Below, in pieces: positions 14,981-45,050 of a stretch of DNA of 52,408 bases. The notes below the pieces were generated by a model. The model was not told the origin of the DNA. It saw only the letters and a program-made list of their open reading frames with translations, and made no database searches. The number at the start of each line of letters is the position of its first letter. Positions within the stretch are counted from its first letter, which is position 1. The DNA lies in IMG/VR virus record IMGVR_UViG_3300035698_004832, positions 1 to 52,408 of that record. One strand, written 5' to 3'. The translations under genes and the position numbers were made by a program. This stretch comes from a virus.

Positions 14981-15301
14981 ATGATGTCTGAACAGAACCT
15001 AGCACCAGAGAGCAGAATCGTGATGGCCAAGGATTTGGCCACGCGATGGTTGCAAGCCCGAACACGCCCTGAGTACCGCATGCAGGTGTACTACGGGGCG
15101 CGTGAGGTGAAGGGCATCCCCAACCTTCTGAAGAGCTTCCGCGATGGGAAGATTCGCATGGGGTCTGTGGAACCCCTGGGAGATCTCGGAATCGATGAGC
15201 ACTTCGACTCGATCACCGTGTGGTCGTCCAACCGTGTAGCCCTGATGGGCCTCAAGGACTGGTTCGAGACACGGGGGTTCGAGACAACAGGGGTGTGGTA
15301 G
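14981..15301 (+). CDS. Small protein carrying an N-terminal VAxR-type tag
   Basis: 106 residues; ATG 14981 with an ATG two codons' reach later at 14984, and a GAGGAA site. Residues 13-26 read IVMAKDLATRWLQA, a variant of the V-A-x-R-[W/F/H]-L motif found in other virion-module proteins. The rest (YYGAREVKGIPNLLKSFRDG, then HFDSITVWSSNRVALMGL) is a small alpha/beta domain of unknown family. It ends one base before the next gene. A virion or head-internal protein is possible from the tag and position. Confidence 0.6.
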   Translation: MMSEQNLAPESRIVMAKDLATRWLQARTRPEYRMQVYYGAREVKGIPNLLKSFRDGKIRMGSVEPLGDLGIDEHFDSITVWSSNRVALMGLKDWFETRGFETTGVW

Positions 15302-15733
15302 ATGGCAGCCACCAGGCTCGGACTCGAATCCACCTACCGTTCCCCCTCCACGGGGTCGGTCTACTACACCTTCATTATCACCTCCGACGTGTCGGGGAAC
15401 GTGTCGGTACGGGACATCCAAGGCCCCTATGGGCTCATTGTGGACACCCTGACCGATGTTCCCTCCTCCGTCATTGCGGACATCACAACCGCTATCAACG
15501 CAGTGGAGGCCATTTTGGCTGGCATCTCTTCCACCAGTGGCAGCGTGACGTTCGCAGCCGAGACTTCCCAGGCAGTGGTGTTCAGCACCGCTCTGGCTGA
15601 CGCCACCTACCGCGTCTACACCAATACGGCGGAGTTCGTGCCTGTGAAGATCACGAGCAAGGCTACCACTGGGTTCACCATCGAAATCGGTGTGACCTTC
15701 ACCGGAACCGTCTACTACGACGTGCTCGTGTAG
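15302..15733 (+). CDS. Beta-rich virion structural protein
   Basis: 143 residues rich in Thr, Ser and Val, with short beta strands. The last 60 residues, from SGSVTFAAE through DATYRVYTNTAEFVPVKIT to TGTVYYDVLV, follow a pattern shared with the end of the next protein: 'induced strand, A-D-x-x-Y, S-K-T-x-x-x-F, F/G-x-x-Y'. This resembles the small beta-sandwich (H-type-lectin-like) modules at the ends of phage tail-spike or fibre proteins. Likely a surface-exposed virion component; exact role not known. Confidence 0.55.
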   Translation: MAATRLGLESTYRSPSTGSVYYTFIITSDVSGNVSVRDIQGPYGLIVDTLTDVPSSVIADITTAINAVEAILAGISSTSGSVTFAAETSQAVVFSTALADATYRVYTNTAEFVPVKITSKATTGFTIEIGVTFTGTVYYDVLV

Positions 15734-15743
15734 AGAGGGCCTG

Positions 15744-16946: not shown

Positions 16947-16948
16947 TC

Positions 16949-17239
16949 ATGAGCCTTCGCAAGAACCTCATTCGCCTCGCACACACCAACCCTGAGTTGC
17001 GCCCCCAGCTGCTCCCCATTCTGAAGGGCTCCGCCTATGATGGGAACGCTGACGGCAAGCCTATCTATGACCACGATATCGATCATGGGTACGGGCAGCC
17101 TTTGGCTGGTGGCACCGACGTGATGCGTCGTCTGCAGAACCAGTACCGGAAGGAGCAGGGTCGCCCCGAGCGCCCTGCAAACCCCGAAATCCCCAAGATG
17201 GCTTCCCGTGTTGCTCTGCGGCATCTCGACAGGAAGTAG
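16949..17239 (+). CDS. Small basic protein with C-terminal VAxR-type tag
   Basis: 96 residues. The N-terminus SLRKNLIRLAHTNPELRPQL is an amphipathic helix with Leu/Arg periodicity. The middle (YDGNADGKPIYDHDIDHGYG) is polar and probably flexible. The C-terminus KMASRVALRHLDRK (residues 83-96) is a V-A-x-R-H-L element, here at the end instead of the start. No family recognised; probably a virion or assembly protein. Confidence 0.55.
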   Translation: MSLRKNLIRLAHTNPELRPQLLPILKGSAYDGNADGKPIYDHDIDHGYGQPLAGGTDVMRRLQNQYRKEQGRPERPANPEIPKMASRVALRHLDRK

Positions 17240-17248
17240 GAGAACACC

Positions 17249-17830: not shown

Positions 17831-17896
17831 GACACACGGACTGTGCGCGTCATTTATATGGCTATAGGCTGGCCTGGGTAGAACAGGGAGTCGCCC

Positions 17897-18508
17897 ATGG
17901 TTGAGAAGCCCCTTGCAGCCCGTGTTGCTTCCAGGCACCTGGAAGGACACCACAATCCGCAGACGCGGACGGCGGGTGAAGTACGCTTCATCAAGGACCG
18001 TGGTTCTGATCACAACGAGTGGGGCTGGGGAACTCCGGGCCCTTCGGAACGTGAGATCAACCATGAGTTTGTCTTCAACGCCAAGTACCTGAAGCCCCTC
18101 GCTCAGTCCCTCCGCGCTGCCCTCATGGCTCTTGGCCACACCACCAGTGCCCACACCCAGTTCGTGAAGCTCAAGAGCCGCAACGTGTCCCCTGATGGGA
18201 ACCTGGGTGGCAAGGGCTACATCCAGAAGATTGCTGACATGCGCCGCCAGTTGATGAACTGCATCGAGGCGTTGTCCTCTTTCACGGATACCGTGTACGA
18301 TGAGCTGGCTGCCCCTCACTGGGATCCCGCCGAAGATGTGCTCTCTCCCCGTGATCGTGATGAGGTCAAGGAAATCATCGATGATGCCGAGGAGATCAAG
18401 CTGGATCCCAAGGAATGGGCAGAGGATGAAGAGGCGGAGATGGACAGTGCCAAGGGGAACGGCGTCGGCAAAGTCGCAGCCCTCTACATGGCTCGGAGGA
18501 ACGCATGA
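17897..18508 (+). CDS. Uncharacterised protein with N-terminal VASR tag
   Basis: 203 residues; AGGGAG site before ATG 17897. Residues 8-16 are ARVASRHLE, among the clearest copies of the tag. A conserved-looking core follows: FIKDRGSDHNEWGWGTPG, FVFNAKYLKPLAQSLRAAL, GHTTSAHTQFVKLKSRNVSP and GGKGYIQKIADMRRQLMN, then a helical region and an acidic stretch (about 155-185). It ends GKVAALYMARRNA, a second VA-containing helix. No enzyme motif is obvious. The stop overlaps the next gene (ATGA). Confidence 0.6.
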   Translation: MVEKPLAARVASRHLEGHHNPQTRTAGEVRFIKDRGSDHNEWGWGTPGPSEREINHEFVFNAKYLKPLAQSLRAALMALGHTTSAHTQFVKLKSRNVSPDGNLGGKGYIQKIADMRRQLMNCIEALSSFTDTVYDELAAPHWDPAEDVLSPRDRDEVKEIIDDAEEIKLDPKEWAEDEEAEMDSAKGNGVGKVAALYMARRNA

Positions 18509-21285: not shown

Positions 21286-21336
21286 GTTCCCCAAGGGCTC
21301 CCAGTTTCCTTTCAAACGCCTTGAAATTACGGGTAA

Positions 21337-21366
21337 TTGCAGGTTTGTAAGGTTTCGCGGTAGAAT
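21337..21366 (+). promoter_or_regulatory. Candidate sigma-70-type promoter
   Basis: TTGCAG at 21337-21342 and TAGAAT at 21361-21366 are 18 bases apart, a fair match to host housekeeping promoters. It is in the 114-base gap after the 926-residue protein gene and would drive the gene at 21400 and the packaging cluster after it. Found by eye, without scoring. Confidence 0.45.
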
Positions 21367-21399
21367 CTCTATCTACAAAGGTAGGTGGAGGCTTCCATC

Positions 21400-22284: not shown

Positions 22285-22292
22285 GAGGTTTC

Positions 22293-22946: not shown

Positions 22947-22954
22947 GCTACACC

Positions 22955-25306: not shown

Positions 25307-25312
25307 TAGACA

Positions 25313-25558: not shown

Positions 25559-25595
25559 TGGGTATGGTCTTGGATACGTCTGAGAGGTTTCATAC

Positions 25596-27748: not shown

Positions 27749-27757
27749 GAGTAGACC

Positions 27758-28447: not shown

Positions 28448-31400
28448 ATGCCAAAGCCACTGCCAGCACAGACGGGTTCTCTAAAAACCGCTGCCGATGT
28501 AGGGACAGACACGGCGGAGATTTATGCAATCTCCCCGGAAATGCTCTACAGGGTTCTCCAACGCAAGACGTGGGAAGAGACTGCCCGTGGGGTGTGGGGT
28601 GACAGCGATCACGGGAACATGCCCGGCCAGTGGGAGAAGATGCAGAGGATCATCCGGGAACATGGCGGGGCAGTGTTCCAGACAGGCAGGGATGGCTATT
28701 TCGATGTGAAGGTGCATGGGGGGGTTTCCGAGGGAGGGGCTATGGCTCCCTATGGGACTCTCAGTACGGAACGTGTGGCCTCGATGCACAGGGAGGCACT
28801 ACGGGCCCAGGAGATGCTCAAGTGGGTGGTGCAGCCCCTCTCCTTCCTCTCCAAGCACCACAAGGACTTCATCAACGGTCCTGTAGACGACGTGATGGAT
28901 CAGGCGTTCCGCGAGATCGCCCCCCATGTGGTCAAGGCTGTGGGGGAGGCAGAGATCGATGCCGACGTGGATGAATTCCACGATGGGGCCATTCGGGGGA
29001 AGTGGGACTATGATCGTGAGCTTCTGTCAGACCCCCCTCGCAGAGAGACCGAGGACTTCATCGAGGGGTACACTTGGGGGTTCCAGCACCCTGACATGGT
29101 GGGCACCAGGGAGCTGCCTGCTCGGGTCAAGAAGCAGGTGGTCGAGGATGCCATCCAAGAATTCCGCCACAAGGTGACGGAGAAGGTTGTCCTGAAGGCA
29201 CTCCGCTCTGTCTGGGGCAGAGTCAATCCCCTGGAGACATTCAGGACCATCATCCGCATGACCAAGAAGCACGGGTGGAAGCTCGGCCTGTTCATCGCCA
29301 GTGTGGAGATCCTGGAAACCTTCGTGATGCCCGCCGTGCTCATTCACATCACGGGTAATGCAGCTCTGGCGGTTACGGGTCAACTCCCCTTGAGCGAGAT
29401 CCTGTACGCCATCATTTTCCCCATCATGTTCCGAGGGAAGGCCGTGGACACGTTCACACCTGACGGCCACCTGGACTGGTATGAAGCCTTGTATGGAATG
29501 GTGCGGGTGGCAGAGCGGACACCGCAGTCAAACAAACTTCAGGCGACGATGGCGGTTTTTGAGGATGTTGTGGGGAACGCTGCCCGGGCTACAGGTCACC
29601 TTGGGTGGACGCGAAAAGTCCTGTCGCCAGAGCAGCAGCAGAAAATGGTGGTGGACTTGAATGGCAGTGCTAGGAACCTGCTTCCTTTGCTCACTTTCAA
29701 GTTTGAGAATCCTGCTCAAGAGGCTGGGTACAAGAAGTATCTGAACAGGATGCGGAACTACCGCAAGATGGTGAAGTCCTTCACGGTTGTGAAGGACTGG
29801 GATGACGTTGTAGCTGTGTGCGACAAAATATCTACCAAGTCCAAGGGGGTCTGGGAGAAGGTGCGGGAGTATGGCAGGGAAGTTCAGGGCGTGCTTGACA
29901 CCGTGGACACGGAGGTCCAGGGCTCCTTTGCTGTGGGGAAATTCCGGGTGATCCTGATGTCCTCCGCAAATGGTGTGTGGGATAACGAGATGCTGGAGCG
30001 CACCCGGCACGTGTTGCACAAGACCTCCCAGCTTATGGGCAAACACGGCATGGGGAAGCTCGCAGCAGGCAATGTCTGGGCGTACTCGTCACCCTCCATT
30101 CCAGGCAGGAGCAGTGTCGTTGCGTGGTATCGGATGGCAGACGATGCCTTGTGCCTTGCTTGTGGGTCCGGATGGTGGATGAGGCGCAGTATGGATGACA
30201 TCCTCAAGACCCTGGTGCATGAGCTGGGGCATCGGGCCTATTTCAAGATCCTGGGTGGCAGCGGCCGTAAGGCGTGGGCTGACTTTTTCGAGCTGTCCCA
30301 GGAAGTCCCTGATGTGCAGGGTATGATCTCCCGCTGGGAGCGTTATGTGGAGGGCGCAGGCTCTGACCTGGAGGAATTCCGGCGTGGGCATCTGCAGCGG
30401 TATCTTCCCATTGTGAAGAAACGAGATGCCAAAGAGAAATACGACTCCTACCGCGGGTACCCCACCAAGACATCGATTTCGGGTCTGCAAGCCCTGAAGG
30501 ACAAGGCCAACAGCATCAAGGTGTTCATGCACCCCGTGACGGTCTACTCTGCCTCCAACGAGGCAGAGCTGTTTGCTGAGGTGTTCTCCCATTACATCGT
30601 ATATGGGCCACAGGCCATTGCACCCGTGGTGCAAGATCAATTCAAGAGGGCACTCCCCATGGCACGACTAGGCAAAGAAAAAATCCCCGGTGGCCTCTCG
30701 GAAGGCAAGGACACCAGCGACCTCGATCCCAAAGAGATGGCGATGGGGGTCAAGGTTGAAATGGAGCATACTGGAGATCCCGCCCTGGCAAAAGAGATCG
30801 CTTCTGATCACCTTGTGGAAATCTCCGACTACTACACTCGTCTGAAGAAGATGGAGGCTGAAGCCGAGAAGCCTGGCAAGAAGGCCGCTGCCCAGAATGG
30901 CAAGAGCACCGGCAACCGCAAGTCCGTGGGCTTCTTCATCCCTCTCCCCAAGGAGCTGGCGGCGCAGTATCCGAGCAGGGCTCCTGTGGACAAATCCGCA
31001 CCCCATGTGACCTTGCTCTATGTGGGTGAAGTGACTGCAGCACGGGAGAAGGAATTCCTGGCTGTGGTGACCAAGGTGATGGCTTCGGAGCCTGGCCCCA
31101 TCAAGGCTGCCATCGGAGGGGTGGACTACTTCCGGCAGCCTGACAAGGACCAGTCGGTAGCCATCCAGACGATCAAGTTCTCTCGGGACGTGGGCGAGAT
31201 GAAGAAGCGTCTGAGGGGTGCCTTGGAGGATGCGGACTTCGTGGTGGAGGACTCGTTCCCCGGTGCCTACAGGAGCCACACGACCCTGGCCTACCTGGAC
31301 GGTACGGACTCCGTGTATGAGGGGCCTGTGCCTGTGGGTTCCTGGGAGTTCGACAGTGTCCCTGTGTGGGGGTTGCCCTCCAACCATGACATTCCCCTGG

Positions 31401-31486: not shown

Positions 31487-34130
31487 ATGCATCCCAACCA
31501 CTACAGAGTCGCCCAGATGCACCTGGAAGCTACCAGCCACAAGAAGTCCATCGTCCTCATGACGTTCCTGGCAGACCTTGCCCGGAGCCTCGGGGTCGGT
31601 CGGCATGTCTACGTCGTGGGTGGGGCAGTGCGGAATTTCGTGATCGATGAGCCCATCAAGGACATCGATGTGGTCATCGACTCCCTGGCTCTCGGGGGAG
31701 GCAGGGACTCCGAGTGGTTCGCCAAGAAGGTCGTCAAGGCCATCCCCGTTCCCGTCAACATGGAGACCAACCAGTACGGTGTGGCCCTCCTCCATGTGAA
31801 GGGGGACTGGATTCTGGATGGGGACAACCTCAAGGGTGAGGACATCGAGATCGCCAACGCCCGCAAAGAGTCCTACGGCGGGGCCGAAGGGAAGGGCTAC
31901 CGAGCCCCACATGGTAGAGCCCGCGACCATCGAGGAAGATGTGGTTCGAAGGGAATTCACCTTCAATTGTGTTGCGGGGGACACCCTTATCCCCACTGCG
32001 CAGGGCATTCTCCGAATCGATCAAATTGCTTCCCGTGAGGTTGGGGATCAACAGGACATTCAAATCATGGTGGCAGGGCAGGAGGGTCCTGCTGAAGCTG
32101 TGGGGTGGCAGTACAGTGGGTTTGCTCCTACCTTGAGGGTAACAACGGGGTGGGGTCACACCCTCTCCTGTACGCATCACCATCCATTTCTGGTCCTTCG
32201 GGGGCATGGCCATGAGTGGATACAGGCGGATCAGCTTGATGAGGGGGATCTGCTTTGTGTGCCTGTGCAGCAAATGATCCGTAGTACCTCATTGATCCTG
32301 GGGTTACCTGATCCTCCGAAACCCCGGACAGGTAAACTCAAGGAGGGGGTGGTAAAACCTGATGTGATGACACCTGAGCTGGCATTCGTGATCGGGTGTG
32401 TGGTGGCCGAAGGATCAAACACCCCTACTCGGGTCTCTTTCAGCAATTCAGACCCCGCTTTCATTTCCCGGTATATCGAGTGCTTCAACGCTGTGTTCGG
32501 GTTCGTGCCCTCACGGAACAAGGTGGTTGAGAAGGGTTCTGTCCGTACCCTGCGAGGTGTGGATTTTGTCGCCACTGCTGATGGTTACGACATCCTCGCT
32601 AACAGCAAGGCTGTGGTAGGATGGCTGCAAGACCTCGGCCTTTATTGCGGGGGATCCAAGGGGGGGAAATCTGCATCCCACCACAAGGTTGTGCCGTGGT
32701 CTATCCTCCAAGCCGACGAACAGAGCCAACGAGCGTTCCTTGCAGCTTATCTGGAGGGGGATGGGTGTCTCCACCACACGGGTCGCATCACATACTGTTC
32801 GGCATCTCATCAGGTGCGACAGCAGTTGCAGGTGCTTCTGGGCTCCCACGGCATCTTGTCCAAGGTTAAGGACAGGTTCGTGTACATCAATGCTGTGGAT
32901 TCCTCGCGGCTATGGGAGAAGATTCATCCGTGGATGGTCACCAAGAAATTCGACTACACAGGCCGCGTGTTCAAGAGCCGCAACCGTTATGGCATTCCAG
33001 TGGACTACATTGCAGGGTTCCTCTCGGGCCGTAGACAGGCATCAGCGGGTAAGGCAGGGGTCGCCTACACAACAGATTCCGGGGATGCACAACCCCTTCG
33101 TGGGATGCACGACCCTGTCCGGTTAGTTCGCCGTCTTCTCCATGACGCATATGCTCGCGGGGATTTCAACGATTTCCTGGATGGTCTTAGGGTCATTAGT
33201 CCCAAGGAACACCTCAATCTCCAACGGTTGTTTGATCTCAGCTACCAATATGTAGAGGTCACCTCTGTAGAAGATGCGGGCAAACAGGATGTATTCGACA
33301 TCTCGATGGAAGAGGGGATGGAACCTGCATTTGTGGCGAATGGGGTGGTAGTACACAACACCCTCATGTGGCGGCTGCACGACCTGGCCCGAGGGCCGGA
33401 CAAGGCAGAGATCATTGACCTCACCGGGTGCGGTCTGCGGGATTTGAAGAACCGCGAGCTGCGGTGCCCCTCGGACCCCGACAAGACCTTCTCGGATGAC
33501 CCGACACGGCTGCTCCGTGTGGTCAAGTTCACCACGAAGTACGGGATCAAGATTCCTGCTGACGTGAAGGCTTCCATCAAGCGGAATGCCCCCAAGCTGC
33601 GGAAGGCACCTCACAGTGCCCTGTCCAACCTGCTGATCAACACCGTGCTGGTGGAGCCATACGCCAAAAAGGCTCTCCATCAGATGAAGGACTTGGGTCT
33701 GCTGGACGTGCTGGCAGACATGGTGCGAGAGGTGAAGCCTTTCAGGGAGGCACTGCAGAGCTGGGTGTCCAACCAGCGGGTGCTCCTGATGTTCGACATC
33801 ATGGACGTGGGGCTTCCCATGAACACCCCCATCGGGTGGCTGGACAAGGACCAGCAGAAGCGTCTGCGGGAGATCGCCCTTGGGATGGAGCCTGGTGAGG
33901 CCACGAAGTTCCTGGCTGTTTTGAAGCAGACTGGAAAGCTCTGGGGGGACAAGACCTTCTTCCACACCCTGGCTCAAGAGATGGGTGTAGAGCGGACTGG
34001 GATGGCAGTGTTCGGCAAGGCTCTTCAGGAAGTCGCCCGTGACATCATTCTGTTTGACCCGACTCTGGCGTGGAAGCCCAAGGATATGCGGCAGTGGGCC
34101 CGTGAGCGGATGCGGGAAAAGCGGTTCTAG
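31487..34130 (+). CDS. CCA-type tRNA nucleotidyltransferase-like protein, interrupted by an intein and an apparent +1 frameshift
   Basis: Residues 7-15 are RVAQMHLEA, a variant tag. The class II nucleotidyltransferase signature follows: VYVVGGAVRNFVI and DIDVVIDSLAL (catalytic Asp pair). The frame from 31487 stays good to about CGA 31901-31903, then runs on to a stop at 32036; coding resumes one base later, giving GYR-PHMVEPATIEEDVVRRE, which is the conserved family text. The C-extein from 33360 continues TLMWRLHDLARG, DLTGCGLRDLKNRELRCPSD, SDDPTRLLRVVKF. An in-frame intein occupies 31968-33359. Without the skipped base no full protein is made. It may be sequencing error, a dead gene or programmed recoding. 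An HD hydrolase gene follows. Confidence 0.75.
31968..33359 (+). other. Intein with LAGLIDADG endonuclease domain
   Basis: 464 residues inserted in the nucleotidyltransferase at REFTFN/T. It starts with Cys (CVAGDTLIPTAQGI, block A), has the block B-like GWGHTLSCTHHHPF, and ends with block F/G: DISMEEGMEPAFVANGVVVHN, with penultimate His and final Asn; the next residue is Thr, the +1 nucleophile. The middle has two LAGLIDADG helices, LAFVIGCVVAEGS and RAFLAAYLEGDGCL, so it may be a homing intein. All splicing residues look intact. The insertion point is the conserved RRDFT motif of the catalytic core, a typical intein site. Confidence 0.9.
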
Positions 34131-35129: not shown

Positions 35130-35130
35130 C

Positions 35131-35140
35131 CTGTCTATAC
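35131..35140 (+). promoter_or_regulatory. Intergenic 10-mer CTGTCTATAC, copy 2
   Basis: In the 40-base gap between the HD gene and the 603-residue gene; here followed by CTCC, as in the copy at 45137 (CCTCC after it). See also 518-527 (inverted). Possibly a promoter core (TATACC) or protein-binding site. No -35 match is evident. Confidence 0.3.
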
Positions 35141-35169
35141 CTCCGGGTGTGTGACACCTGGAGTAGTTG

Positions 35170-36981
35170 ATGCCCCGCGTAGCTGGAATCTTCGAGGCAC
35201 CCCCCGCCATGCTCAAGTCATTCTTGGGCTGGGCGGTGCCTTTGTATGCGGGGCACGTGCTGGCCCAGACAGAAGCCCGCCTTCAGCTCCTGCGGAACCA
35301 AGAACAAATCTACTTGGATGCCGTGAAGGAGATGGAGCGCACCCAGCGGAATCTGGAACATATTGTGGATGCTTTGGAGGTGGGTGGGGAATTCACTTTC
35401 CACACCTACAGAGTGCTGCCGAGTGGGAAGCTCTACTCGTTTATCCACGGGGCTCAGCGTCGTCTTGATGGGATTCCTGATTCAACGGGGAAGCCTGTAC
35501 GGTTCTATGCGGTAGGGAAGGGCAGGAAGCGGCTGAAGTACCCCCGCTGGAGTAACAACACTCGCAAGAATGCCCTGTACTACTTGAGGGGTGATTTGCA
35601 GAGCGGCCTCGCTTTCATGGAGGCGGGGATCACGCAGTTCCGTGAGAGGGGGGACGACCCCGGCTCGGCTTTGGTAGACAATATTCTTCTTCGGCGTGAG
35701 TGCCTCAAGCACACATCCAAGGCCAAGGAATACGCCACTAAGACCAAGCGCAAGCTCCCCGTAAATCTCTCTGGGTGGAGGTATGCTCAGGCCACAGCCA
35801 AGGAACTGGCTGCAATCGAGTACAAGAACATCACGGTGATTCTGGACTTCAAGGGGCACAGCACTCGTGGTGGTATTTGGAGGCCCGGCCAGAAAGAGTT
35901 GCAGGTGGACGTGCTCCACCCCATCCCCTTGACGGTAGCCGAGTTCCGGGTGGGTCTGGAAAGCATCCAGGAAGTAGCCCGTCATGAGCTACAGCATGTA
36001 GGTCAATTCCTGCTGAAAGAGCTGCGGGGTTTGGGGGAGATTGGTGGTATCCCAGGTGCTTCCGTGCGGGACACCTCTCGGGATGTGTATGGGTTCCCGG
36101 CAGATCCCAAGTATGTGCGCCGCCAAGACGAACATGAGCTTCGAGATGTGGAGTTCTACACGGACCTCGCGGACGAGGTTCCCAATTTCATGCGGGCTAT
36201 CCGCAAGGTCTCTCCTGAGGATCAGCAGGTGGCTTTCCGCACTTGGACAGGGTTGCAAAAATGGGAACGTACCATGAGCCCCAAGGTGGGGGAGAGCACC
36301 TTCTTCCGCAGGTTGCACACATGGAACAAGGCAAAATGGGTGAGAGCTGTGGGTGAATTCCTGAAGGCCGTTGAGAAGAAAGGCTACCGAGCCCCCTCAG
36401 CCTTCCGTGTGGCCTCCCGTCACGTGGCATCGTATTTCAGCATCGGGGACCATGTCCTCTTTGGGAAGTACAAGAACAAGAAGGGCAAAGTCATTGCTGC
36501 CTACCTGGATGAGAAGGGTCACCCCGTGGTGGAGATTGAGCCTGTCCCCAAGGGCAGGAAGCAGAACAAGATCGTCCAGCTCTACCGCATTTGGCATGCA
36601 CCCGCGTCCCCCAAGATGGCCAACCAAGACTGGTCCCGACCCTCTGCTGTGCGCGTAGCCCAGGCTCGCGATGAGGGCTCCAAGGATTTCTTCGACAACC
36701 CCATGCGGTCATCGGTGAGGGACTTTGCCCTGTCCAATGCCATCACCAACGAGCCGGCTGTGGCTCAGCAGTCCCTGGATGATGGGCTCATCACAGAGAC
36801 TGAAGAAGAGCGGGTGGATGACGCCCCTCTCACCCCATCGGAATCGGTACAGGAGCCTGGTGGGAAAGAGTTCTCTACCCTGGCGCAGTACCTGATCGAG
36901 ACCGACACCCCCACCGTAGAGCCCGTGTCCCAGGGGTTTGCCGATATTCCTAAGTCCAAGAACTTGGCGGAGGAGGGGTAG
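35170..36981 (+). CDS. 603-residue mosaic protein with metallopeptidase core and internal VASR tag
   Basis: ATG 35170 follows GGAG. N-terminal helical region, then a middle domain with VARHELQHVGQFLL (His272, Glu273, His276) and DEHELRDVEFYTDLADEV about 47 residues later as the possible third ligand. At 413-420 RVASRHVA appears between this domain and a small barrel domain, FSIGDHVLFGKYKNKKGKV to IEPVPKGRKQNKIVQLYRIW (about 424-480), that resembles SH3-like folds. The rest is disordered and acidic. The tag at a domain boundary is the same pattern as in the 669- and 1,662-residue proteins. No signal peptide. Likely a virion-borne, multi-domain protein. Confidence 0.65.
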   Translation: MPRVAGIFEAPPAMLKSFLGWAVPLYAGHVLAQTEARLQLLRNQEQIYLDAVKEMERTQRNLEHIVDALEVGGEFTFHTYRVLPSGKLYSFIHGAQRRLDGIPDSTGKPVRFYAVGKGRKRLKYPRWSNNTRKNALYYLRGDLQSGLAFMEAGITQFRERGDDPGSALVDNILLRRECLKHTSKAKEYATKTKRKLPVNLSGWRYAQATAKELAAIEYKNITVILDFKGHSTRGGIWRPGQKELQVDVLHPIPLTVAEFRVGLESIQEVARHELQHVGQFLLKELRGLGEIGGIPGASVRDTSRDVYGFPADPKYVRRQDEHELRDVEFYTDLADEVPNFMRAIRKVSPEDQQVAFRTWTGLQKWERTMSPKVGESTFFRRLHTWNKAKWVRAVGEFLKAVEKKGYRAPSAFRVASRHVASYFSIGDHVLFGKYKNKKGKVIAAYLDEKGHPVVEIEPVPKGRKQNKIVQLYRIWHAPASPKMANQDWSRPSAVRVAQARDEGSKDFFDNPMRSSVRDFALSNAITNEPAVAQQSLDDGLITETEEERVDDAPLTPSESVQEPGGKEFSTLAQYLIETDTPTVEPVSQGFADIPKSKNLAEEG

Positions 36982-37533
36982 ATGGCTTCCATTACAGGCT
37001 CCTTGAGCAATGACGTAGAGCTGATGTTCCCAGGGGACAGGTTCCCCGTTTCGGCAGGCCCCACCATGATCGCCAATGGTTGGCGTGGAGGCATCTGGGT
37101 CATGTATGTCACCTCCGCCCTGGGTGATTTCGTGGTGGAGACCAGCGATGGCACAATGACCTGTGGGTTCCTCCTGTTCCAGAGTGAGCAGTACCCCGCG
37201 ACCCACATCCTGGAAGGCTCCCCCGGCAACTGGCTGGCTGGCCAGCCACGGAGCTGTCAGGCAACCAGTGTGGTCACCCTGATCAGTGGTGGCACCCGTG
37301 CCTATTTCCGCAGATACGAGACCATCGCTCTCGCTGCTGGCACCAGGTCAGGTGGGCCAATCACCTATGCGCTGCAGGACACGTTGAAGGTGTCCGAGAA
37401 CGGGTTGCTCTGCAATGACTCTGATGCCGCCTTGGCAGCGGCGGGTATTGCCACTCCTGTCGTGGTCGGCATTGTGAGTGCAACACCCTCCACAGCCAAT
37501 GAGGTCCGCCTAGGGGCGGACGTTAAGTACTGA
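36982..37533 (+). CDS. Virion surface/decoration-like protein, paralogue of the pre-capsid protein
   Basis: 183 residues, beginning immediately after the previous stop with GGAGGAGGGG upstream. The C-terminal half, GGPITYALQDTLKVSENGLLC to VVVGIVSATPSTANEVRLG, parallels the end of the 221-residue protein upstream of the capsid gene (DPITYTTGLALAASRNGFLC, TIIGILKMPADATQGEIVYD). The N-terminal half is different and beta-rich. It probably belongs to a virion-exposed beta-sandwich family, perhaps decoration or spike protein. Stop overlaps the next start (TGATG). Confidence 0.55.
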   Translation: MASITGSLSNDVELMFPGDRFPVSAGPTMIANGWRGGIWVMYVTSALGDFVVETSDGTMTCGFLLFQSEQYPATHILEGSPGNWLAGQPRSCQATSVVTLISGGTRAYFRRYETIALAAGTRSGGPITYALQDTLKVSENGLLCNDSDAALAAAGIATPVVVGIVSATPSTANEVRLGADVKY

Positions 37534-39542
37534 TGCCCTCTGCTCCCACCCGCGTTGCAGGACGGTTCCTGGAGGCCACCAGGCCCGTGTGCAGGACCAA
37601 GGAGGGGTGGGACATCACGTTCAAGGTACTTGTTGATGACCCCCATGATCAGATGGGGGTGAAGAAGGGGCACAAGAACCAGCGGGTGGTGGCTTTCATA
37701 GAGGGGCAGGAAGTGGGCTACCTCAAGTGGTCCTACATCCCCGAGCAGGTGTGGGAGCGCCGCTACCCTACGGTGTGGCACTACAGGCGTGATTTTGTAG
37801 GGTCCTGGTACGACGCAGAAGGCCAGGACTTGAATGATCTGGAGACCCTCTGGACACTACTGTTCCAGCATCCCCGCTACTACGGCGAGCCCCGTGAGAA
37901 GCCTGACGTGCGGGGCATGAAGAGGGACATCAAGCGGTATCTCAAACAGCACCCACAGCTCTCTCCAGCATATGTCAAGTCACGGGAGTTCTGGGTAGAT
38001 CGGCCCCTGGTCACATATGTGCATGTGGAACCAGCTTGGAGACGACACAAGGTAGGGCTTGCCCTTTACACATACGCAGCACGGTGGTTGGCGAAGAAGG
38101 GTTTTCCTCTCTATGGGGACACTCTCCAGACAGCAGATGCCAAGGGGGTTTGGAAGAAGATGCGGAAGCTCAAGCGTATTCCCGTGAAGAACACGGAGTT
38201 CGAGCATGGCGGCAAACCTCGTGATCGGATTGATTATCGTCGCGTTGCCTCCCGGTTCATCTCCAAGCACGCGTGCATCATCGCAGTTGGTGACTGGGAG
38301 GGGAGCCGTTGTCTACTGAAGGTGCGGGATCGGAACTACCGTCCTGACCTGGACGTGATCCACAAGGTCAAGGCCGGGGTGGAGCTGCTCTATGTCCACG
38401 ACAAGAAGACGGGCTGGGTAGAGGGGCTGAATGAACACGGGATCGGGATCGTGAACACCTCCCTCCTGGTGATCCGGGATGAGAACGAGGTTGACCTGAC
38501 CACCTCGGAGGGGAAGAAGCTCAAGGACGGCACTCGTATCCGTGAGGCTCTGACCAAGAAGACCCTGGATGATGCGGTGGACTCCATCTGCAACTACGAG
38601 GGTGGGCTCATGGGCCACACCTTCCTCAGTGATGGGGAGACCACCATCGTTGTGGAGCACACCATCAAGCACGATTGCAAGACCACGGTGCTCACGGGGG
38701 CAGATGTTGTTGTCCGAACGAACCATGGTGTCTCCCATGAGGACGCCGGGTACACAGACGGGAAGGACGCGGAGTCCTCTCACAAGCGGTCTGATGATGC
38801 AGAAGCTGCGCTCTCTGGGGTCAAGAAGATCGAGGATTTGGCTCCTACCTTGATGGAGGCTCGGGGTCGGAAGAAGGACCCCAACAACATGGTGCGGAAC
38901 ACCGCCAACATGCGTACCACGTCCCAGATGCTGCTCGACCTGGACAACCTGACATTGTACCTCTACCTGATCCCAGGGAAGGTGCAGTGGAAGGGGTACG
39001 TGAACAAGATGCCCAAGGGTCGGAAGCCGAAGCTCAAGCTTCAGGTGCTCCGGTACAAGGACGGGGACAGCCTTGATCTCGAACCAGTCCTGAAACAGGC
39101 CCACGTGGAGCCCATGGTGCAGATGGAAGACCATGGCTCTGATGAGGTGATATTCTACCTGAGGGACAGGAACACCGATAAGGTGTTGGCCGACCTCATC
39201 CTCACCGCTATGGATCCCCCCGGCTACTGGTTCGTGGGTCATTCCGGAGCCCTTGTGCGGGGACAGGGGTATGGCACCGAGCTGTACATGGCTGCCATCA
39301 AGTACGCCACGGAACAGGGACACGGGGTGGTGTCCGATGAGGAAGCCATTGCCTCAGCCAAGGCAGCACGCAGGTATGTGCGGCGACGCGGGGTGCATTT
39401 TCAGGACGGCTCCGTGTACAAGACACGCAGATCCTTCCTGACCTTCTGCCTGGGGTATCCAGAGGAGGAGGATGCTCACGACATCAGGGACGCGGTGGTG
39501 ATGACCTCTCGCAAGGGTGCTGCCTACCCCTCGGAGAGATGA
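37533..39542 (+). CDS. 669-residue mosaic protein: GNAT-like, Ntn-hydrolase-like, GNAT-like
   Basis: Starts with the tag RVAGRFLEA (7-15). First domain ends with YVHVEPAWRRHKVGLALYTY (about 165-185), a GNAT acetyl-CoA-binding pattern. A second tag RVASRFISK lies at 237-245, immediately followed by HACIIAVGDWEGSRCLL; Cys248 is placed as the N-terminal nucleophile of an Ntn hydrolase of the C45/acyltransferase type, with GLNEHGIGIVNTSLL and VVRTNHG (Asn397, His398) as further family features. The third domain (about 540-669) has RGQGYGTELYMAAIKYA, another GNAT motif. If cleavage occurs at the second tag, Cys248 could become close to the new N-terminus, as Ntn hydrolases require. Confidence 0.65.
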   Translation: MPSAPTRVAGRFLEATRPVCRTKEGWDITFKVLVDDPHDQMGVKKGHKNQRVVAFIEGQEVGYLKWSYIPEQVWERRYPTVWHYRRDFVGSWYDAEGQDLNDLETLWTLLFQHPRYYGEPREKPDVRGMKRDIKRYLKQHPQLSPAYVKSREFWVDRPLVTYVHVEPAWRRHKVGLALYTYAARWLAKKGFPLYGDTLQTADAKGVWKKMRKLKRIPVKNTEFEHGGKPRDRIDYRRVASRFISKHACIIAVGDWEGSRCLLKVRDRNYRPDLDVIHKVKAGVELLYVHDKKTGWVEGLNEHGIGIVNTSLLVIRDENEVDLTTSEGKKLKDGTRIREALTKKTLDDAVDSICNYEGGLMGHTFLSDGETTIVVEHTIKHDCKTTVLTGADVVVRTNHGVSHEDAGYTDGKDAESSHKRSDDAEAALSGVKKIEDLAPTLMEARGRKKDPNNMVRNTANMRTTSQMLLDLDNLTLYLYLIPGKVQWKGYVNKMPKGRKPKLKLQVLRYKDGDSLDLEPVLKQAHVEPMVQMEDHGSDEVIFYLRDRNTDKVLADLILTAMDPPGYWFVGHSGALVRGQGYGTELYMAAIKYATEQGHGVVSDEEAIASAKAARRYVRRRGVHFQDGSVYKTRRSFLTFCLGYPEEEDAHDIRDAVVMTSRKGAAYPSER

Positions 39543-40039: not shown

Positions 40040-40061
40040 TCACCGCTGGTAGAGGAACCCT

Positions 40062-43000
40062 ATGCCCACTGTCGATAAAGTAGCTGCCCGTTGGCTGGAA
40101 GCGCGCCAGGATCCCCTGGACGAGAAGTACATCCAGAAGCTCCGCAAGGAGTTCCTGATGCTCCTTCGGAACGCGGACAGGGCCAAGACTTTCGACACCC
40201 CCACAGCGGAGAAGTACCGCAAGGCTGTGGTTCGGTGGCGGGAGATGTTCGAGCTTTATGGGGGGCAGATTCGGGAGGACCTGAAGGGTAGAGAGCGTGC
40301 AGCCAAGAGCGGTTATGGGAAGAACACCAAGGCCAATGAACAGTGGGCACATTGGTATCTGGAACACATGAAGCCTTTCTGGGAAATGCACTATGAGCTG
40401 GGTAATGTTCCCGCGGTGCCAGACCTGCGCGCTGGTACTTCAGGAGGGCCTTTCGAAGACCCCGAGGTGGTGGAGGCCCGGCTTGTAGATTTTTATGAGA
40501 CGCGCTATCCAGAGAGGGATGCCAAGAGGGAGGTTGAGCGGTATCTCTGGAGTTCCCCGCTCTGGACACGGAAGCAGGCAGAGGCGGATTCTCTGGAGCG
40601 TTGGGCGGAAATCACTCGCAAGTGGGCTGCACGGGCTCGGAGCAAGGCTCGTGCAACGTGGAAGTATCTCACTGATCTGGGCAACTGGGCTGCAGAGTCC
40701 GGTGGGGGTGGGGAGGCCATTGCATTGACCACGACCCAGGATGAGAGGGTGAGCCTGGAAGGTTTCTCCCTGCTTTTCCGGGGGTTCGATGATGCTGGCT
40801 CGAACCAGGAGTATTTGGAGGCACTGAAGGCAGCCCTGGCCAAGTACAAGCAGAAGGCACGTAAGCACCTGCCTCTTCTTCTGAAGAAACAACTCCCATT
40901 CGTGGTGAACTGGTCCTGGGCCAAAGACCATGGAAGCGCCGCCGCCACCTACAACGGCGACCACATCGAGATCACTCCTTGGGGGTTGACTTCCAACACT
41001 GACAACATGGTGCGGACATTGGCTCATGAGATGGGCCACCACCTCTACGACATCCTGGGTCGGGAGAAGCAGCACTTCTGGGAAAGTGCCCTCCGTGGGG
41101 ACTACAAGAAGCTGGATTTGCGGCATGCAGTCAAGGTCATGAAGTCTGTGGGGGCTAGCACCACCATCAGTGACAAGCTGGCTCAGAAGGACCCCATCCT
41201 CTATCTGCAGTTGGGCACCCTCCTGAACCATCATGGCTACAAGGGTTTGGACTTGTTCGGGCTGAAATCCATTGAGGAGTATTTGGCAGATCCGGAGAAC
41301 AGTCCCATTGTTATAGTGCCTGCCTCTCCAATCTCAGCGTATGCGGGAACGAGTGCCTCAGAGGCTTTCTGTGAGGCTGTCGGGCACCTGGTGGCCTACG
41401 GCAAGAACCGGCTGCCTGACAAGGTGTTGGGTTGGATGAAGATCATGCTTCCCCATGTGAAGTTCGGGGCAGAGCGGCTTGGCCCCAACACCCCGCTGAT
41501 GGAACACGGCAAGGTCAAGGTCAAGTACCGGGTGAAGAGCAGTGGCAAGGGCGTCGCTGTGACGGTCTATTATGGCCGTGGGAAAATTGGTGGGATGAAT
41601 GCTTTTGTCACCAAATACCCCGAACGGGATTACTGCGGAGATGACGTTTGGAAGCTCCTGAAGAAGTACCCACAGGTTGAGGACACCAGCCGTGGTAGGT
41701 GGACACCAAATGGCGGGGAAGAGCGCACCAACACGAGGGGTCTCCAAGTCTACAAGGCATTCCTCACCGATGAAAGCAAGCAGGGGTTGGGCATTGGCAG
41801 GGCGATGTACCTGGCGATGATGGCGGAGTGGTTCGATAAGGTTGGGCCCTTCCTGTTCATGCCTATGGTCTGTGGGTTGGGTACATCGGGGACATCTGCC
41901 GCAGCTTTCCGTGTGTGGAAGTCTCTGGCACGGGATTTCCCCTCCAGCGGCAATGTGATTGCAGTGCTTCGGCGTCCTCGGTTGCCTTCCCCCTCCAAGG
42001 TAGCACACAGGTTCATGGGAGATTCTTCTCTTCACCCTGTGAGGGGTATCTCCACGCATGACGGGGACGGGCGTCCTCTGCGGCAGCCCTCTGGTTTGTT
42101 GCGTATGATGCCTGACTATGGAGAGGGCGGAGCCAATCTCCCTCGTGGGAATCCTGGTGAGGTCGAAGAGGTGTGCGAGGAACTGCAGGCTATGGGGATG
42201 CGGGTGGCATCCCGTTTCAAGCAGGCCAGGACCTACAACCGCATTGCGTTGTATGACTTCGACGGGACTCTGTTCCGCAGCTGGGAGACGGAGCCTTCCT
42301 GGTGGAAGGGGACTTCTCTCGACACAGGCCCCTACTCGTTCTTCGTGCGTCCCGAGTCCCTGGGGGAGCCCTATATTCCTGAATCCCCCGGCTCTGATTA
42401 CTGGGTCGCCAAGAGCGTCGCAGCAGCCAAGAGGGATGCCGCTGACCGAAACGTCCTCATGGCGGTGGTTACCGGGCGTGTGGGTGTACACAAGCAGCGG
42501 GTGCGAGATCTGCTCAAGAGCAAGGGCATTGCCCCCCAAGCCTTCTATTTCAACCCAGGCATGGACGCTGTGCGCTTCAAGGTGGCGATTATCCGCACGT
42601 TGCTGGTGAGCAACAACATCACGGCTGTGGGTGTGTGGGAGAACGAGAACCAGACCGCTTATAAGAGGGCATTGGAACATGCAGCCGAAGCTTTGGGTCA
42701 GGACATCAAGGTCACTGTCCACAGTGTTCAAGTACCTCCCAAGCCTCTTGTGTGCGGGCCTGCGGACTTTGGGCTCTCGGAGGGCAGGGTGGCAGCATAT
42801 GATCTGATTACAGACCTCATGCCTAAAGAGATGGACACATTCAGAATCGGACCTTTGCACATCAGTATTTCTCCTGGGTATGACAAGTTCCAACGCCTGT
42901 TCACCCGGCAGATGGCTGCTGCCCTCCAGCAGCACAAGAAGCTCCTCCCAGAAATGCAAATCCGAGCAGCAAATGTGGTGCTTGTACACTCCCGAGGTTG

Positions 43001-45050
43001 GGGTGAGGATCTGGCGGGCGACTATGACGACGGGACGATCCGGATCCTATTCAAGAACAGCCCTGCCGCTGTGGAGACCGCCTTGCACGAGATCGGGCAT
43101 CAGCTGTGGGATCACAACAGTGGTTTGCGGAGCCAGTGGCGTATTTTTGACTCGGTTGCATGGGATACCAAGGGGTATCGGATCAATGCTGTAGCTTCGG
43201 AGAGCATGGAGGAGCACTTCTGCGAGGCATACGCCCTTGTGGTGGGTGGTTCTCTCCGGGGTTGGCGGAAGGAGGCTATTCTGATGGCTATCGAAGGAAA
43301 GACCCACCCCAGGATGCAGGCATCCAGAGTGGCCACACGGTTGGCGGATCGGTTCCTCAGTGCAGCAGCCAAGTACCAGAAGAAGAAGGAAGTCCCCAAG
43401 GCTGATGGCAAGGGGACCATGACCGTCTACGAGTACAGCGACGGGCAGGTTCAGCACCGGAACCGGGAGAAGGCCGAGCGCGTAGAGAAACTACGGGGGA
43501 ACCTCGACAAGCTCCGTGGCCAGGTGAAGAAAGACCTCAAGTCCAAGGACCCAAGCACAAGGCTCAGTGCTTTGGCTGTGGGGCTCATGAACGACACCTA
43601 CGAGCGTGTAGGCAATGCAGGCTCCGCCAAGGAAGGACACTTCGGTGTCACCGTGTGGCAGGCCCAGCATGTAACCCTGGGCAAGGGGAAGGCCACCTTC
43701 AGCTATGTAGGCAAGAGCGGGGTCAAGCAGAAGAAGGTCACCTCCGACAAGGCTTTGATCTCTGTGCTGCGTGAAGCCATGAAGGGGAAGTCCGGTACGG
43801 ATAATGTGTTCTCACTGGACGATGTTTCCGTGGGTGCTAGCGGGGTGAACGAGTACCTCAAGCAGTTCAACATCACCGCGAAGGACATCCGAGGGCTGCA
43901 TGCCAACAGGGAGATGCAGACCCGGCTCAAGAGCGTTCGTTCCAAGGGCGGCAAGCTCCCAGCTGACAAGAAAAAGCGGGATGAGAAGCTCAAGGCGGAG
44001 TTCAAGAAGGCTCTGGAGGGAGCTGCAGAGGCTGTGGGCCATGAGCCCACTACCCTGAAGGGTCAGTACCTCGTGCCTGGGTTGGAGGACAGCTACATCA
44101 AGGACGGCACTGTGATGGACAAGCTGCACAAGAAGGCTCGTGTGGCACTTCCCCCAAGCAAGTGGGTGGATGCGGTGTCTACGGAGCTGGACAGGGCTCA
44201 GAAGGAACAGGTCTGGACCGTTTACCACATGACCTATGCGACTATCGGAGAACACATTGGGAGCTTGGGGCAGCTCCTGTCCAAGTACAAGCTCCTGTGG
44301 TTGATGGATGTCGATGGTGACCAGGAGATCGATGCCTTCATCGCCTACAAGAAGACTCCTTTTGGCTACAAGATCGCCCTGGGAGGAACAGACGGCACCA
44401 GGGCTGCTGTGAGGGCATTTGTGCGGAAGCACCAAGAGTTGATGGTGCGTCCAGGGTGGTATGCAGAGGCATCCGGCAAGCCCGATAAGCTGATGTCCAA
44501 GATGGGCCTGCGCCCTCTGGAAGATGAGAGTGCTGTGCGTGGGGTACTGGTAGGCAAGGACATCGAGTGGGGGCAGGATGGTTGGTACACCCGAACCCTG
44601 GGTGGTCTTGGGAAGGTTAAGAAGCGGATGTACGGACACCCCATAGTGAGGGGTCGTGCGCTCATGGCCTCCGATGTGGAGTGGGAAGACCTCACAGGGA
44701 GGACGCTTACGGGTGAGGTGGTAGACACGGACTCCAACGTGTGGATCGTGGCAGATGCCACTGGCAGAGAGCATCACCTGGAAGATGGGTGGGACTTTGT
44801 GCGGAGGGTGGCAACCAAGACCCCCGCAGAGCGTGAGGATGCAGAGGTGGAGCGGCTCAGTCGCAAGGAGCCCAAAGTCAAACCTCCCCGCAAGGATCTC
44901 CGCAGGCAGCGTATGGAAGTGGATCAGGAAGACGATCCCGACATGAAACAGGACAAAAAGAATCAGTCCCACAATTACAAGGACATAGGGGCAAGCGTGC
45001 TTTCTGTGCTGGAACGACAGTACAAATTCAGCGCCTGGACGGTATGGTAG
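40062..45050 (+). CDS. 1,662-residue multi-enzyme protein with four VAxR-type tags
   Basis: Order: tag KVAARWLEA (6-14); metallopeptidase 1 with TLAHEMGHHLYD (His322, Glu323, His326) and ASEAFCEAVGHLVA as third-ligand region; GNAT-like QGLGIGRAMYLAMMAEW (about 574); tag KVAHRFMGD (646-654); tag RVASRFKQA (714-722); HAD phosphatase-like LYDFDGTLF (Asp732, Asp734) with AVVTGR, resembling the HAD of 'Swiss Army Knife' RNA-repair proteins; metallopeptidase 2 with ALHEIGHQLWDH (His1009, Glu1010, His1013); tag RVATRLADRFLSA (1089-1101); topoisomerase IB/tyrosine-recombinase-like region with YERVGN (Arg1182), YVGKSGV (Lys1218), DIRGLHANREM (Arg1277, His1280) and Tyr1336 in GQYLVPG; GNAT-like C-terminal part (about 1420-1560) and a basic tail. 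No frameshift. Translation of one chain, possible processing into several enzymes. Confidence 0.75.
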   Translation: MPTVDKVAARWLEARQDPLDEKYIQKLRKEFLMLLRNADRAKTFDTPTAEKYRKAVVRWREMFELYGGQIREDLKGRERAAKSGYGKNTKANEQWAHWYLEHMKPFWEMHYELGNVPAVPDLRAGTSGGPFEDPEVVEARLVDFYETRYPERDAKREVERYLWSSPLWTRKQAEADSLERWAEITRKWAARARSKARATWKYLTDLGNWAAESGGGGEAIALTTTQDERVSLEGFSLLFRGFDDAGSNQEYLEALKAALAKYKQKARKHLPLLLKKQLPFVVNWSWAKDHGSAAATYNGDHIEITPWGLTSNTDNMVRTLAHEMGHHLYDILGREKQHFWESALRGDYKKLDLRHAVKVMKSVGASTTISDKLAQKDPILYLQLGTLLNHHGYKGLDLFGLKSIEEYLADPENSPIVIVPASPISAYAGTSASEAFCEAVGHLVAYGKNRLPDKVLGWMKIMLPHVKFGAERLGPNTPLMEHGKVKVKYRVKSSGKGVAVTVYYGRGKIGGMNAFVTKYPERDYCGDDVWKLLKKYPQVEDTSRGRWTPNGGEERTNTRGLQVYKAFLTDESKQGLGIGRAMYLAMMAEWFDKVGPFLFMPMVCGLGTSGTSAAAFRVWKSLARDFPSSGNVIAVLRRPRLPSPSKVAHRFMGDSSLHPVRGISTHDGDGRPLRQPSGLLRMMPDYGEGGANLPRGNPGEVEEVCEELQAMGMRVASRFKQARTYNRIALYDFDGTLFRSWETEPSWWKGTSLDTGPYSFFVRPESLGEPYIPESPGSDYWVAKSVAAAKRDAADRNVLMAVVTGRVGVHKQRVRDLLKSKGIAPQAFYFNPGMDAVRFKVAIIRTLLVSNNITAVGVWENENQTAYKRALEHAAEALGQDIKVTVHSVQVPPKPLVCGPADFGLSEGRVAAYDLITDLMPKEMDTFRIGPLHISISPGYDKFQRLFTRQMAAALQQHKKLLPEMQIRAANVVLVHSRGWGEDLAGDYDDGTIRILFKNSPAAVETALHEIGHQLWDHNSGLRSQWRIFDSVAWDTKGYRINAVASESMEEHFCEAYALVVGGSLRGWRKEAILMAIEGKTHPRMQASRVATRLADRFLSAAAKYQKKKEVPKADGKGTMTVYEYSDGQVQHRNREKAERVEKLRGNLDKLRGQVKKDLKSKDPSTRLSALAVGLMNDTYERVGNAGSAKEGHFGVTVWQAQHVTLGKGKATFSYVGKSGVKQKKVTSDKALISVLREAMKGKSGTDNVFSLDDVSVGASGVNEYLKQFNITAKDIRGLHANREMQTRLKSVRSKGGKLPADKKKRDEKLKAEFKKALEGAAEAVGHEPTTLKGQYLVPGLEDSYIKDGTVMDKLHKKARVALPPSKWVDAVSTELDRAQKEQVWTVYHMTYATIGEHIGSLGQLLSKYKLLWLMDVDGDQEIDAFIAYKKTPFGYKIALGGTDGTRAAVRAFVRKHQELMVRPGWYAEASGKPDKLMSKMGLRPLEDESAVRGVLVGKDIEWGQDGWYTRTLGGLGKVKKRMYGHPIVRGRALMASDVEWEDLTGRTLTGEVVDTDSNVWIVADATGREHHLEDGWDFVRRVATKTPAEREDAEVERLSRKEPKVKPPRKDLRRQRMEVDQEDDPDMKQDKKNQSHNYKDIGASVLSVLERQYKFSAWTVW

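Follow-up and report, generated by a model that had tools for sequence, protein, structure and literature searches.

What does a short peptide do that recurs at the ends and at the internal joints of otherwise unrelated phage proteins? This question is raised by the IMG/VR virus record IMGVR_UViG_3300035698_004832, of which positions 1 to 52,408 were analyzed here (the window, a 52.4-kb piece of a huge phage genome). In a first-pass annotation of this DNA, eleven related peptides had been noted in seven open reading frames (ORFs), and all of them were found at their positions. The consensus of this ten-residue peptide, here called tag A, was determined to be [RK]-V-A-x-R-[YFHW]-[LM]-x-x. The reading preferred here, to which a probability of roughly 60% is given, is that tag A acts as a prohead docking peptide for cargo proteins, analogous in function to the capsid-targeting sequence of phage T4.

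The major capsid protein of the window is 87% identical to its homologue in the 485-kb metagenomic phage LR745208.1 (W01), 49% to that of Tunturiibacter phage Tunturi_5 and 39% to that of Bacillus phage G. The relatives compared were W01, G001 (619 kb), G002 (376 kb), G003 (312 kb), G004 (227 kb), G005 (160 of 177 kb), phage G and Tunturi_5, together with T4 and RaK2 (220 of 346 kb). A relative of the capsid protein is encoded in 537 IMG/VR stretches, of which the best 80 were kept. Without the three lying within G001 to G003, 77 further capsid-gene loci remained; two of these belong to G004 and G005, which were also scanned separately, whole or nearly so. Genes were called by a custom script, and some start codons are uncertain.

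The first search matrix was built only from the eleven peptides and used at a score of 12. A refined matrix was trained on the window, W01 and G001 to G003, whereas G004 and G005 were held out; judged by its tagged proteins, G004 resembles a near relative of G002, and the hold-out is not fully independent. Since the first iterated matrix drifted into a second peptide (tag B, see below), all later matrices required an aromatic residue at position +4. Copies beginning within 25 residues of a protein end were counted as N- or C-terminal, all others as internal. The copies in the window are:

15035..15058, plus strand: tag A (LATRWLQA) near the N-terminus of ORF 14906-15301, start uncertain
17210..17236, plus strand: tag A (VALRHLDRK) at the extreme C-terminus of ORF 16949-17239
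17924..17947, plus strand: tag A (VASRHLEG) at the N-terminus of ORF 17897-18508, a conserved structural-block gene
18473..18505, plus strand: tag A (VAALYMARRNA) at the C-terminus of ORF 17897-18508, absent from the earlier list
28775..28798, plus strand: tag A variant (VASMHREA) inside ORF 28448-31483 at a homology edge, absent from the earlier list
31508..31531, plus strand: tag A (VAQMHLEA) at the N-terminus of the tRNA nucleotidyltransferase-like ORF 31487-32038 (Pfam PolyA_pol)
36409..36432, plus strand: tag A (VASRHVAS) at a module seam inside ORF 35167-36981, several homologues starting or stopping at the tag
37554..37577, plus strand: tag A (VAGRFLEA) at the N-terminus of ORF 37533-39542 (GNAT and acyltransferase-like by Pfam), start uncertain
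38244..38267, plus strand: tag A (VASRFISK) between the GNAT and acyltransferase-like modules of ORF 37533-39542
40080..40103, plus strand: tag A (VAARWLEA) at the N-terminus of the 1662-residue ORF 40062-45050, aligned with the tag of W01 462951
42000..42023, plus strand: tag A (VAHRFMGD) closing a module of ORF 40062-45050, where four small homologues end
42204..42227, plus strand: tag A (VASRFKQA) ahead of the HAD-like module of ORF 40062-45050
43329..43364, plus strand: tag A (VATRLADRFLSA) ahead of the topoisomerase IB module of ORF 40062-45050 (Pfam Topoisom_I, E = 3.6e-26)
46260..46283, plus strand: tag A variant (VARAFVKR) in ORF 45939-46520, absent from the earlier list

Five of the original eleven are N-terminal (15035, 17924, 31508, 37554 and 40080), one is C-terminal (17210) and five are internal (36409, 38244, 42000, 42204 and 43329). 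The tags at 15035 and 37554 are missing from the window counts because the starts called by the script (15080 and 37587) fall just downstream of both. Homologues are tagged at about the same place (W01 419344, SVAGRWLV, and G001 276435, SVARQWLL, for ORF 14906-15301; in W01 276342, an internal tag precedes the same module as in ORF 37533-39542), which favours the earlier starts.

With the first matrix, 10 matches were detected in the window proteins compared to 0.4 per shuffle and 1 in the reversed proteins, an in-sample result. In W01 there were 6 N-terminal, 5 C-terminal and 9 internal matches (shuffle means 0.3, 0.4 and 3.4) and in G001 4, 4 and 6 (0.5, 0.5 and 3.8), totals reached in none of 100 shuffles. 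The search in related phages that had been proposed was thus positive, with 11 terminal matches in W01 (0.7 expected) and 8 in G001 (1.0 expected). The total for G002 (1, 0 and 5) was reached in 0 of 100 shuffles and its terminal count in 27 of 100; for G003 (1, 1 and 1) these values were 16 and 2 of 100. Among the 723 proteins of the 77 other capsid loci, 5 N-terminal, 1 C-terminal and 22 internal matches were found (0.5, 0.2 and 5.1 expected); they are mainly internal and stem from 19 of the 77 loci.

The refined matrix detected 12 copies in G004 (7 N-terminal, 2 C-terminal and 3 internal) where 0.3 were expected, and 0, 1 and 2 in the analyzed part of G005 (0.3 expected), the terminal count of the latter not being significant. 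In T4 it gave one C-terminal and no N-terminal match, and in the 220 kb of RaK2 none.

A total of 73 copies were counted in five phages, of which 27 are N-terminal, 19 C-terminal and 27 internal. Each phage has between eight and 18 carriers. At least two copies are present in ten proteins, and G001 308841 and G001 598426 are tagged at both ends. The placement described previously, N-terminal or between domains, therefore holds for the termini and module seams, and the C-terminus, not listed there, is also common. No convincing copy had been noted in the replication half; the first 14.3 kb of the window, with 27% of the residues, hold none of 12 copies (P = 0.02).

Three matches were rejected. 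VARV[FY]MNARDY, present in the capsid proteins of five phages, matches by chance within a homologous protein; it was left out of the 73 copies and of the 77-locus, G004 and G005 counts, and elsewhere can only swell the internal counts. IASRHMTPIR in the portal is conserved portal sequence, and SAKAARRYVRRR, at residue 593 of the protein called from 37587, was not counted as a tag.

Placed at i, i+1, i+4 and i+5, the V, A, aromatic and L positions form an amphipathic stripe. The hydrophobic moment of tag A is 0.56 compared to 0.35 in shuffled tags, and its net charge is +2.1 compared to −0.2 in random segments. At four-fold degenerate codons, third bases agree with a frequency of 0.26 to 0.33, about as expected from the genomes (0.29 to 0.38), which indicates that tag A is kept as a peptide and not as DNA.

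The carriers are largely unrelated. With the tags masked, 41 terminal carriers fell into 30 clusters without detectable similarity, and all 61 carriers, mosaics included, into 33; clustering was performed by BLAST at 1e-3, where distant kinship may escape. Of 23 internal tags flanked by more than 60 residues on both sides, 14 were found at most 20 residues from a homology edge, compared to 8.4 at random positions (p = 0.003), and only 7 were spanned by homology, compared to 13 at random (p = 0.002).

Individual seams are consistent with these numbers. The first module of ORF 40062 matches the 454-residue protein W01 462951 with tag aligned on tag, the module ended by the tag at 42000 matches small separate proteins of G002 and G003, and the HAD-like module, which starts at the tag at 42204, matches the separate 197-residue protein G002 97191, the N-terminal tag of the latter aligning with the tag at 42204. 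A 121-residue protein encoded separately in G004 (KRVASRYMEAKLFGLLSN) has its N-terminus at the position equivalent to residue 808 of the 919-residue protein G002 257901 (AIRVASRYMEARLFGLLSN). W01 387673 is a fusion of a protein that ends in a tag in L007 20482 and a protein standing alone as G002 211013. G002 154607 and G003 87009, two homologues encoded on their own, begin directly behind the position of the tag at 38244, and in L032 the tRNA nucleotidyltransferase-like module is tagged internally (KVASRFLESSTHRKSIVLM). As counter-examples, the HAD homologue W01 404201 and the acyltransferase-like homologue G002 154607 have no tag in front. On the basis of these alignments, the simplest account of the internal copies would be gene fusion of tagged one-module proteins.

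The carriers in the window comprise, according to Pfam, tRNA nucleotidyltransferase-like, 2H RNA ligase/phosphoesterase, GNAT, acyltransferase-like and topoisomerase IB proteins. ORF 28448-31483 contains 2H RNA ligase/phosphoesterase and DUF5661, and ORF 40062 combines topoisomerase IB with two HExxH stretches recognized in its sequence and the HAD-like module assigned by homology. For the relatives, 46 of the 53 carriers outside the window were used (7 crossing piece borders were omitted), together with four hand-added proteins with weaker N-terminal tags (G002 97191, G002 262153, G003 113558 and G003 115767). These 50 carriers match only 10 Pfam families, and most of them match none. Four of the families are 2H-related (2H RNA ligase, LigT, AKAP7 and tRNA-ligase phosphodiesterase); the others are Acb1 (anti-CBASS), HAD_SAK_1 (RNA repair), ART-PolyVal, DUF5661, and Cullin and KIF9, which are probably chance matches.

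The control set consisted of 99 of 122 chosen length-matched non-carriers, after omission of the longest proteins and of several from the list's end. It matches 88 families, the first 25 of which include helicases, RecA, primase and nucleotide metabolism as well as MPTase-PolyVal and ArdcN. The Pfam families matched by the 50 carriers, most of which match nothing, include none of replication type. The carriers with a recognizable family thus appear to be mostly of effector or RNA-repair type.

The enzyme-type carriers of the window are all located between the portal and the capsid gene. Two head genes were assigned:

46520..48127, plus strand: head maturation (prohead) protease (PHROG 18299, E = 8.7e-10)
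50206..51081, plus strand: major capsid protein of the phage G type (PHROG 2522, E = 1.1e-50)

The prohead protease that had been proposed at 46.5 kb was thereby identified, and homologues of it are present in all eight genomes searched. Two conserved carrier families lie in the structural block. The homologues of ORF 17897-18508 in W01, G001 and G002 have a tag-like N-terminal sequence. ORF 45939-46520 directly precedes the protease gene and has its tag between a small barrel and a Cys-rich part; R-V-A is invariant in all five homologues. A structure model of this protein (five sequences, mean predicted local distance difference test score of 62) contains a helix at residues 102-115, predicted with low confidence. 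The model and a fold search with it added little; the matches were KOW/Tudor-like barrels, with a best E of 0.02.

Within 35 kb of the capsid gene, 6 of 18 carriers are located in G001 (Fisher test, p = 0.016), 4 of 14 in W01 (p = 0.095), 5 of 13 in G002 (p = 0.10) and 2 of 8 in G003 (p = 0.66). A rank test gave p = 0.019 for W01, 0.024 for G001, 0.57 for G002 and 0.39 for G003. A simple cluster around the capsid gene was rejected, being significant by the Fisher test in only one of the four genomes (G001).

Some further features of these genes were observed. The tRNA nucleotidyltransferase-like gene (31487-34130) contains an intein with splicing and LAGLIDADG domains, and its reading frame shifts at about 31.8-32.0 kb, by a true frameshift or a sequencing error. 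The DUF5661-type module, which reads roughly G-[IV]-K-V-E-M-E-H-T..., is shared by proteins that differ elsewhere (28448-31483 and G001 272783-273706) and may be another attached module. By eye, the proteins at 12118-12363, early in the window, and 48097-49305 share K-A-x-K-C-x-x-x-A-Q-x-L-L...E-D-Q-A-x-x-L-M-D-x-P; the product of the latter, which adjoins the capsid gene, is acidic and scaffold-like.

In the proposed mechanism, tag A, probably a basic amphipathic helix, would be appended to either end of many unrelated proteins and be recognized by a prohead component, either the core/scaffold or the protease complex. Candidates for this receptor are the products of ORF 48097-49305, ORF 45189-45929 and ORF 45939-46520. 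The tagged proteins would be loaded into the head and might later reach the host together with the DNA. Internal copies would represent the joints at which tagged one-module proteins fused into mosaic enzymes, and cleavage of the tag would not be needed. A capsid-targeting and/or processing signal had already been suggested in the first-pass annotation. Its targeting part gains support from the recurrence at ends and seams, on some enzymes of effector type and on structural-block genes, whereas a general protease site was not confirmed.

Several findings weigh against docking in the prohead. Scanned with the tag-A matrix, Tunturi_5 and phage G, both relatives by capsid type, gave nothing above chance, and in the other relatives the carriers are spread beyond the head region. 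Most of the 50 carriers lack a Pfam family, two of the ten families are chance-like, the HAD_SAK_1 match may stem from a hand-added carrier, and the effector families MPTase-PolyVal and ArdcN occur among the 99 non-carriers. The terminal copies and the copy in the conserved head-block protein may have different functions. The more numerous tag B of G002 and G003 suggests several addresses, and the one for the capsid may be another than tag A. Neither a cultured phage that carries tag A nor a virion proteome of such a phage was found; two conserved tag-A genes, searched against 50,697 phage records at E up to 0.01, matched only LR745208.1.

The alternative that survives best, itself unlikely, is intracellular sorting or complex assembly, in which the tag would gather RNA-repair and ADP-ribosylation enzymes on a scaffold, a membrane or a replication compartment. 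RNA-repair type domains among the carriers and their scatter along the genome would fit this, as would the presence of tags A and B or A and D in one phage, which suggests several destinations. However, the Pfam matches of the 50 carriers include no replication-type family, and conserved carriers are encoded next to the protease, portal and terminase genes of the structural block. ADP-ribosyltransferase function is a function of virion-delivered proteins such as T4 Alt (PMC5512222).

The parallel tags on which this alternative draws were characterized in the relatives. Tag B, with the N-terminal sequence MRRSASEIIRNLEMRIARLERQA or similar, was found in 29 of 385 proteins of G002 and 24 of 296 of G003 (shuffle means 0.02 and 0), which form 27 and 18 unrelated clusters, respectively, as well as in 11 proteins of G004 and 8 in the analyzed part of G005. 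A search for it in the window, W01, G001, Tunturi_5 and phage G was negative. The tag B leader of about 24 residues, present on about 7-8% of the G002 and G003 proteins (L107-L141), is followed by mostly unrelated sequence.

Tag D (MTLRSKLIRLAHENPELRPHLLPLLKEAA) occurs in W01 in eight copies by pattern and at 11 places by tblastn; 9 carriers form 9 unrelated clusters. One copy is located in the window:

16955..17026, plus strand: tag D (LRKNLIRLAHTNPELRPQLLPILK), a shared N-terminal peptide of the 96-residue ORF 16949-17239

The detectable similarity of this 96-residue protein is tag D in its first 30-40 residues, and its last residues are tag A. Synonymous identity is in excess in tag B (0.61 compared to 0.30 in G002 and 0.64 compared to 0.38 in G003) and in tag D (0.46 compared to 0.29-0.38), which indicates a more recent spread of both as DNA.

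Tag E (MKRLIKKA-like) was identified in 20 phage G proteins by a loose pattern, about 15 of which begin with MKRL or MLKRL; a second pattern gave 20 proteins in 15 clusters. Proteins with tag E include gp17, gp38, gp53 and gp57. Four tag E proteins have an HGT[SD] start, which we take to be ADP-ribosyltransferase-like. Among the 84 proteins that carry tag B, D or E, 18 Pfam families were matched, each in a single member. Phage G (NC_023719) also has a run of 14 proteins ending in YWKENDRYL or similar at 352-369 kb, and three more small proteins with such an end at 26-33 kb. This ending was set aside as a tag, the carriers being mostly one gene run taken for paralogues.

These peptides allow a wider reading, put forward tentatively and judged somewhat short of even odds, in which several short terminal tags (A, B with MRRSASEIIRNLEMRIARLERQA, D with MTLRSKLIRLAHENPELRPHLLPLLKEAA and E with MKRLIKKA) would form an address code that sorts unrelated proteins to defined places, with the head interior among these. 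A tag combined with gene fusion could then turn almost any acquired enzyme into injected cargo.

Somewhat less probable than intracellular sorting is a targeting peptide that is also removed by the prohead protease, at L-E/A-G; it overlaps with the docking model and adds cleavage. The L-E-A/G ending proposed as a protease site does apply to the N-terminal copies of the window, where E followed by A or G was found after 3 of 3 counted tags and after 4 of 5 with 15035 and 37554 added (the copy at 15035 carries Q), and it recurs in single N-terminal copies of G004 (MEA) and L049 (LEG) and in internal copies, for instance in W01 387673 (LEA). In addition, the genome encodes the head maturation protease, and A at +8 is more frequent in N-terminal (9 of 27) than in C-terminal copies (1 of 18; p = 0.03), so that N-terminal copies may be cleaved. 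However, the ending was found in none of 24 N-terminal copies of W01, G001, G002 and G003. A cut at a C-terminal copy would take off few residues, and one at an internal copy would split enzymes. The sequences make a weak case for a protease site common to the whole clade, and such a site does not appear to be general.

It is very improbable that the tag is a recombination joint, with its DNA kept as a short homology for shuffling modules and its peptide without function. Internal tags do prefer module seams, but the DNA of tag A is not conserved, as it has no clear excess of synonymous identity, and C-terminal copies are found on small proteins. Such joint spreading may apply to tag B of G002 and G003, given its spread at the DNA level. 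ClpX recognizes short motifs at protein ends that are basic or hydrophobic, and a degradation or unfoldase signal for a ClpX-like host or phage machine would suit the terminal placement and basic character, but it is hardly credible with 27 of 73 copies internal and would be odd on conserved structural-block genes.

If tag A is a packaging signal, the injected cargo of uncultured huge phages could be listed from sequence alone, much as the T-even internal proteins have been listed by their signal sequence (PMC12373910). It would explain mosaic effectors as fusions of tagged one-module proteins, point to virion-borne enzymes of RNA-repair and ADP-ribosylation type, and offer a peptide of ten residues by which proteins could be loaded into phage heads. 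The parallel tags raise the question of how many destinations a huge phage sorts its proteins to.

The closest comparison is with T4. When T4 was searched blindly for N-termini common to several proteins, MKTYQEFIAEA was recovered in two proteins of 100 and 193 residues, presumably IPII and IPIII; a group of similar endonuclease-like ORFs ranked above this pair. The method can therefore detect a real capsid-targeting sequence, but also paralogues. The same search in the 220 kb of RaK2 gave no clear shared leader (22 pairs compared to 17 shuffled). A small T4 ORF (L217 18966-19130, minus strand) begins with MKTFKEFIKEDMVAG, which resembles the internal proteins' capsid-targeting sequence. Some tag-A leaders begin with MKPYQ or MKSYE, compared to MKTYQEFIAEA in T4, but the core differs.

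In T4, the ten N-terminal residues of IPIII are enough for capsid targeting. IPII has an identical propeptide, and Alt undergoes processing at both termini (PMC9026906, section 10). Tag A resembles these sequences (IPI-IPIII and the Alt propeptides) as a short terminal peptide on otherwise different proteins in a genome with a head maturation protease. It differs in sequence, in the number of carriers (eight to 18 per phage compared to few in T4), in its N-terminal, C-terminal and internal placement without a general protease site, in a virion location that is so far inferred, and in the parallel tags within its clade. The carriers of tag B likewise far outnumber the few internal proteins of T4.

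Literature searches on shared N-terminal or capsid-targeting phage peptides, which covered few subscription journals, did not turn up these tags; nor were they described in the available parts of two jumbo-phage reviews (PMC7824862 and PMC13282480) and of PMC5512222. In phage P1, part of the injected enzyme DarB directs it to the capsid (PMC9024508); this concerns one protein and an N-terminal region whose fold may be required, whereas tag A is ten residues long and found on many proteins. The polyvalent proteins (Iyer et al., 2017, PMC5512222) are mosaics with metallopeptidase, ADP-ribosyltransferase and comparable domains that are thought to be packaged and injected, but the available part of that work describes no short shared motif, whereas many carriers of tag A are small and the tag is preferentially located at joints. 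ART-PolyVal was found in 1 of 50 tag-A carriers (E = 1.9e-12) and MPTase-PolyVal in 1 of 99 non-carriers. As in polyvalent proteins, at least two effector domains per polypeptide were found in ORF 37533 (GNAT and acyltransferase-like) and in ORF 40062.

A role comparable to that proposed for tag A is played by the cargo-loading peptides of encapsulins, a subject of PMC8346489. In encapsulins, a short terminal peptide loads enzymes into a shell of the HK97 fold. Encapsulins are, however, cellular compartments, and no sequence relation of their peptides to tag A is claimed. By analogy, tag A would be filed as a peptide that works like a capsid-targeting sequence, outside the T4 family.

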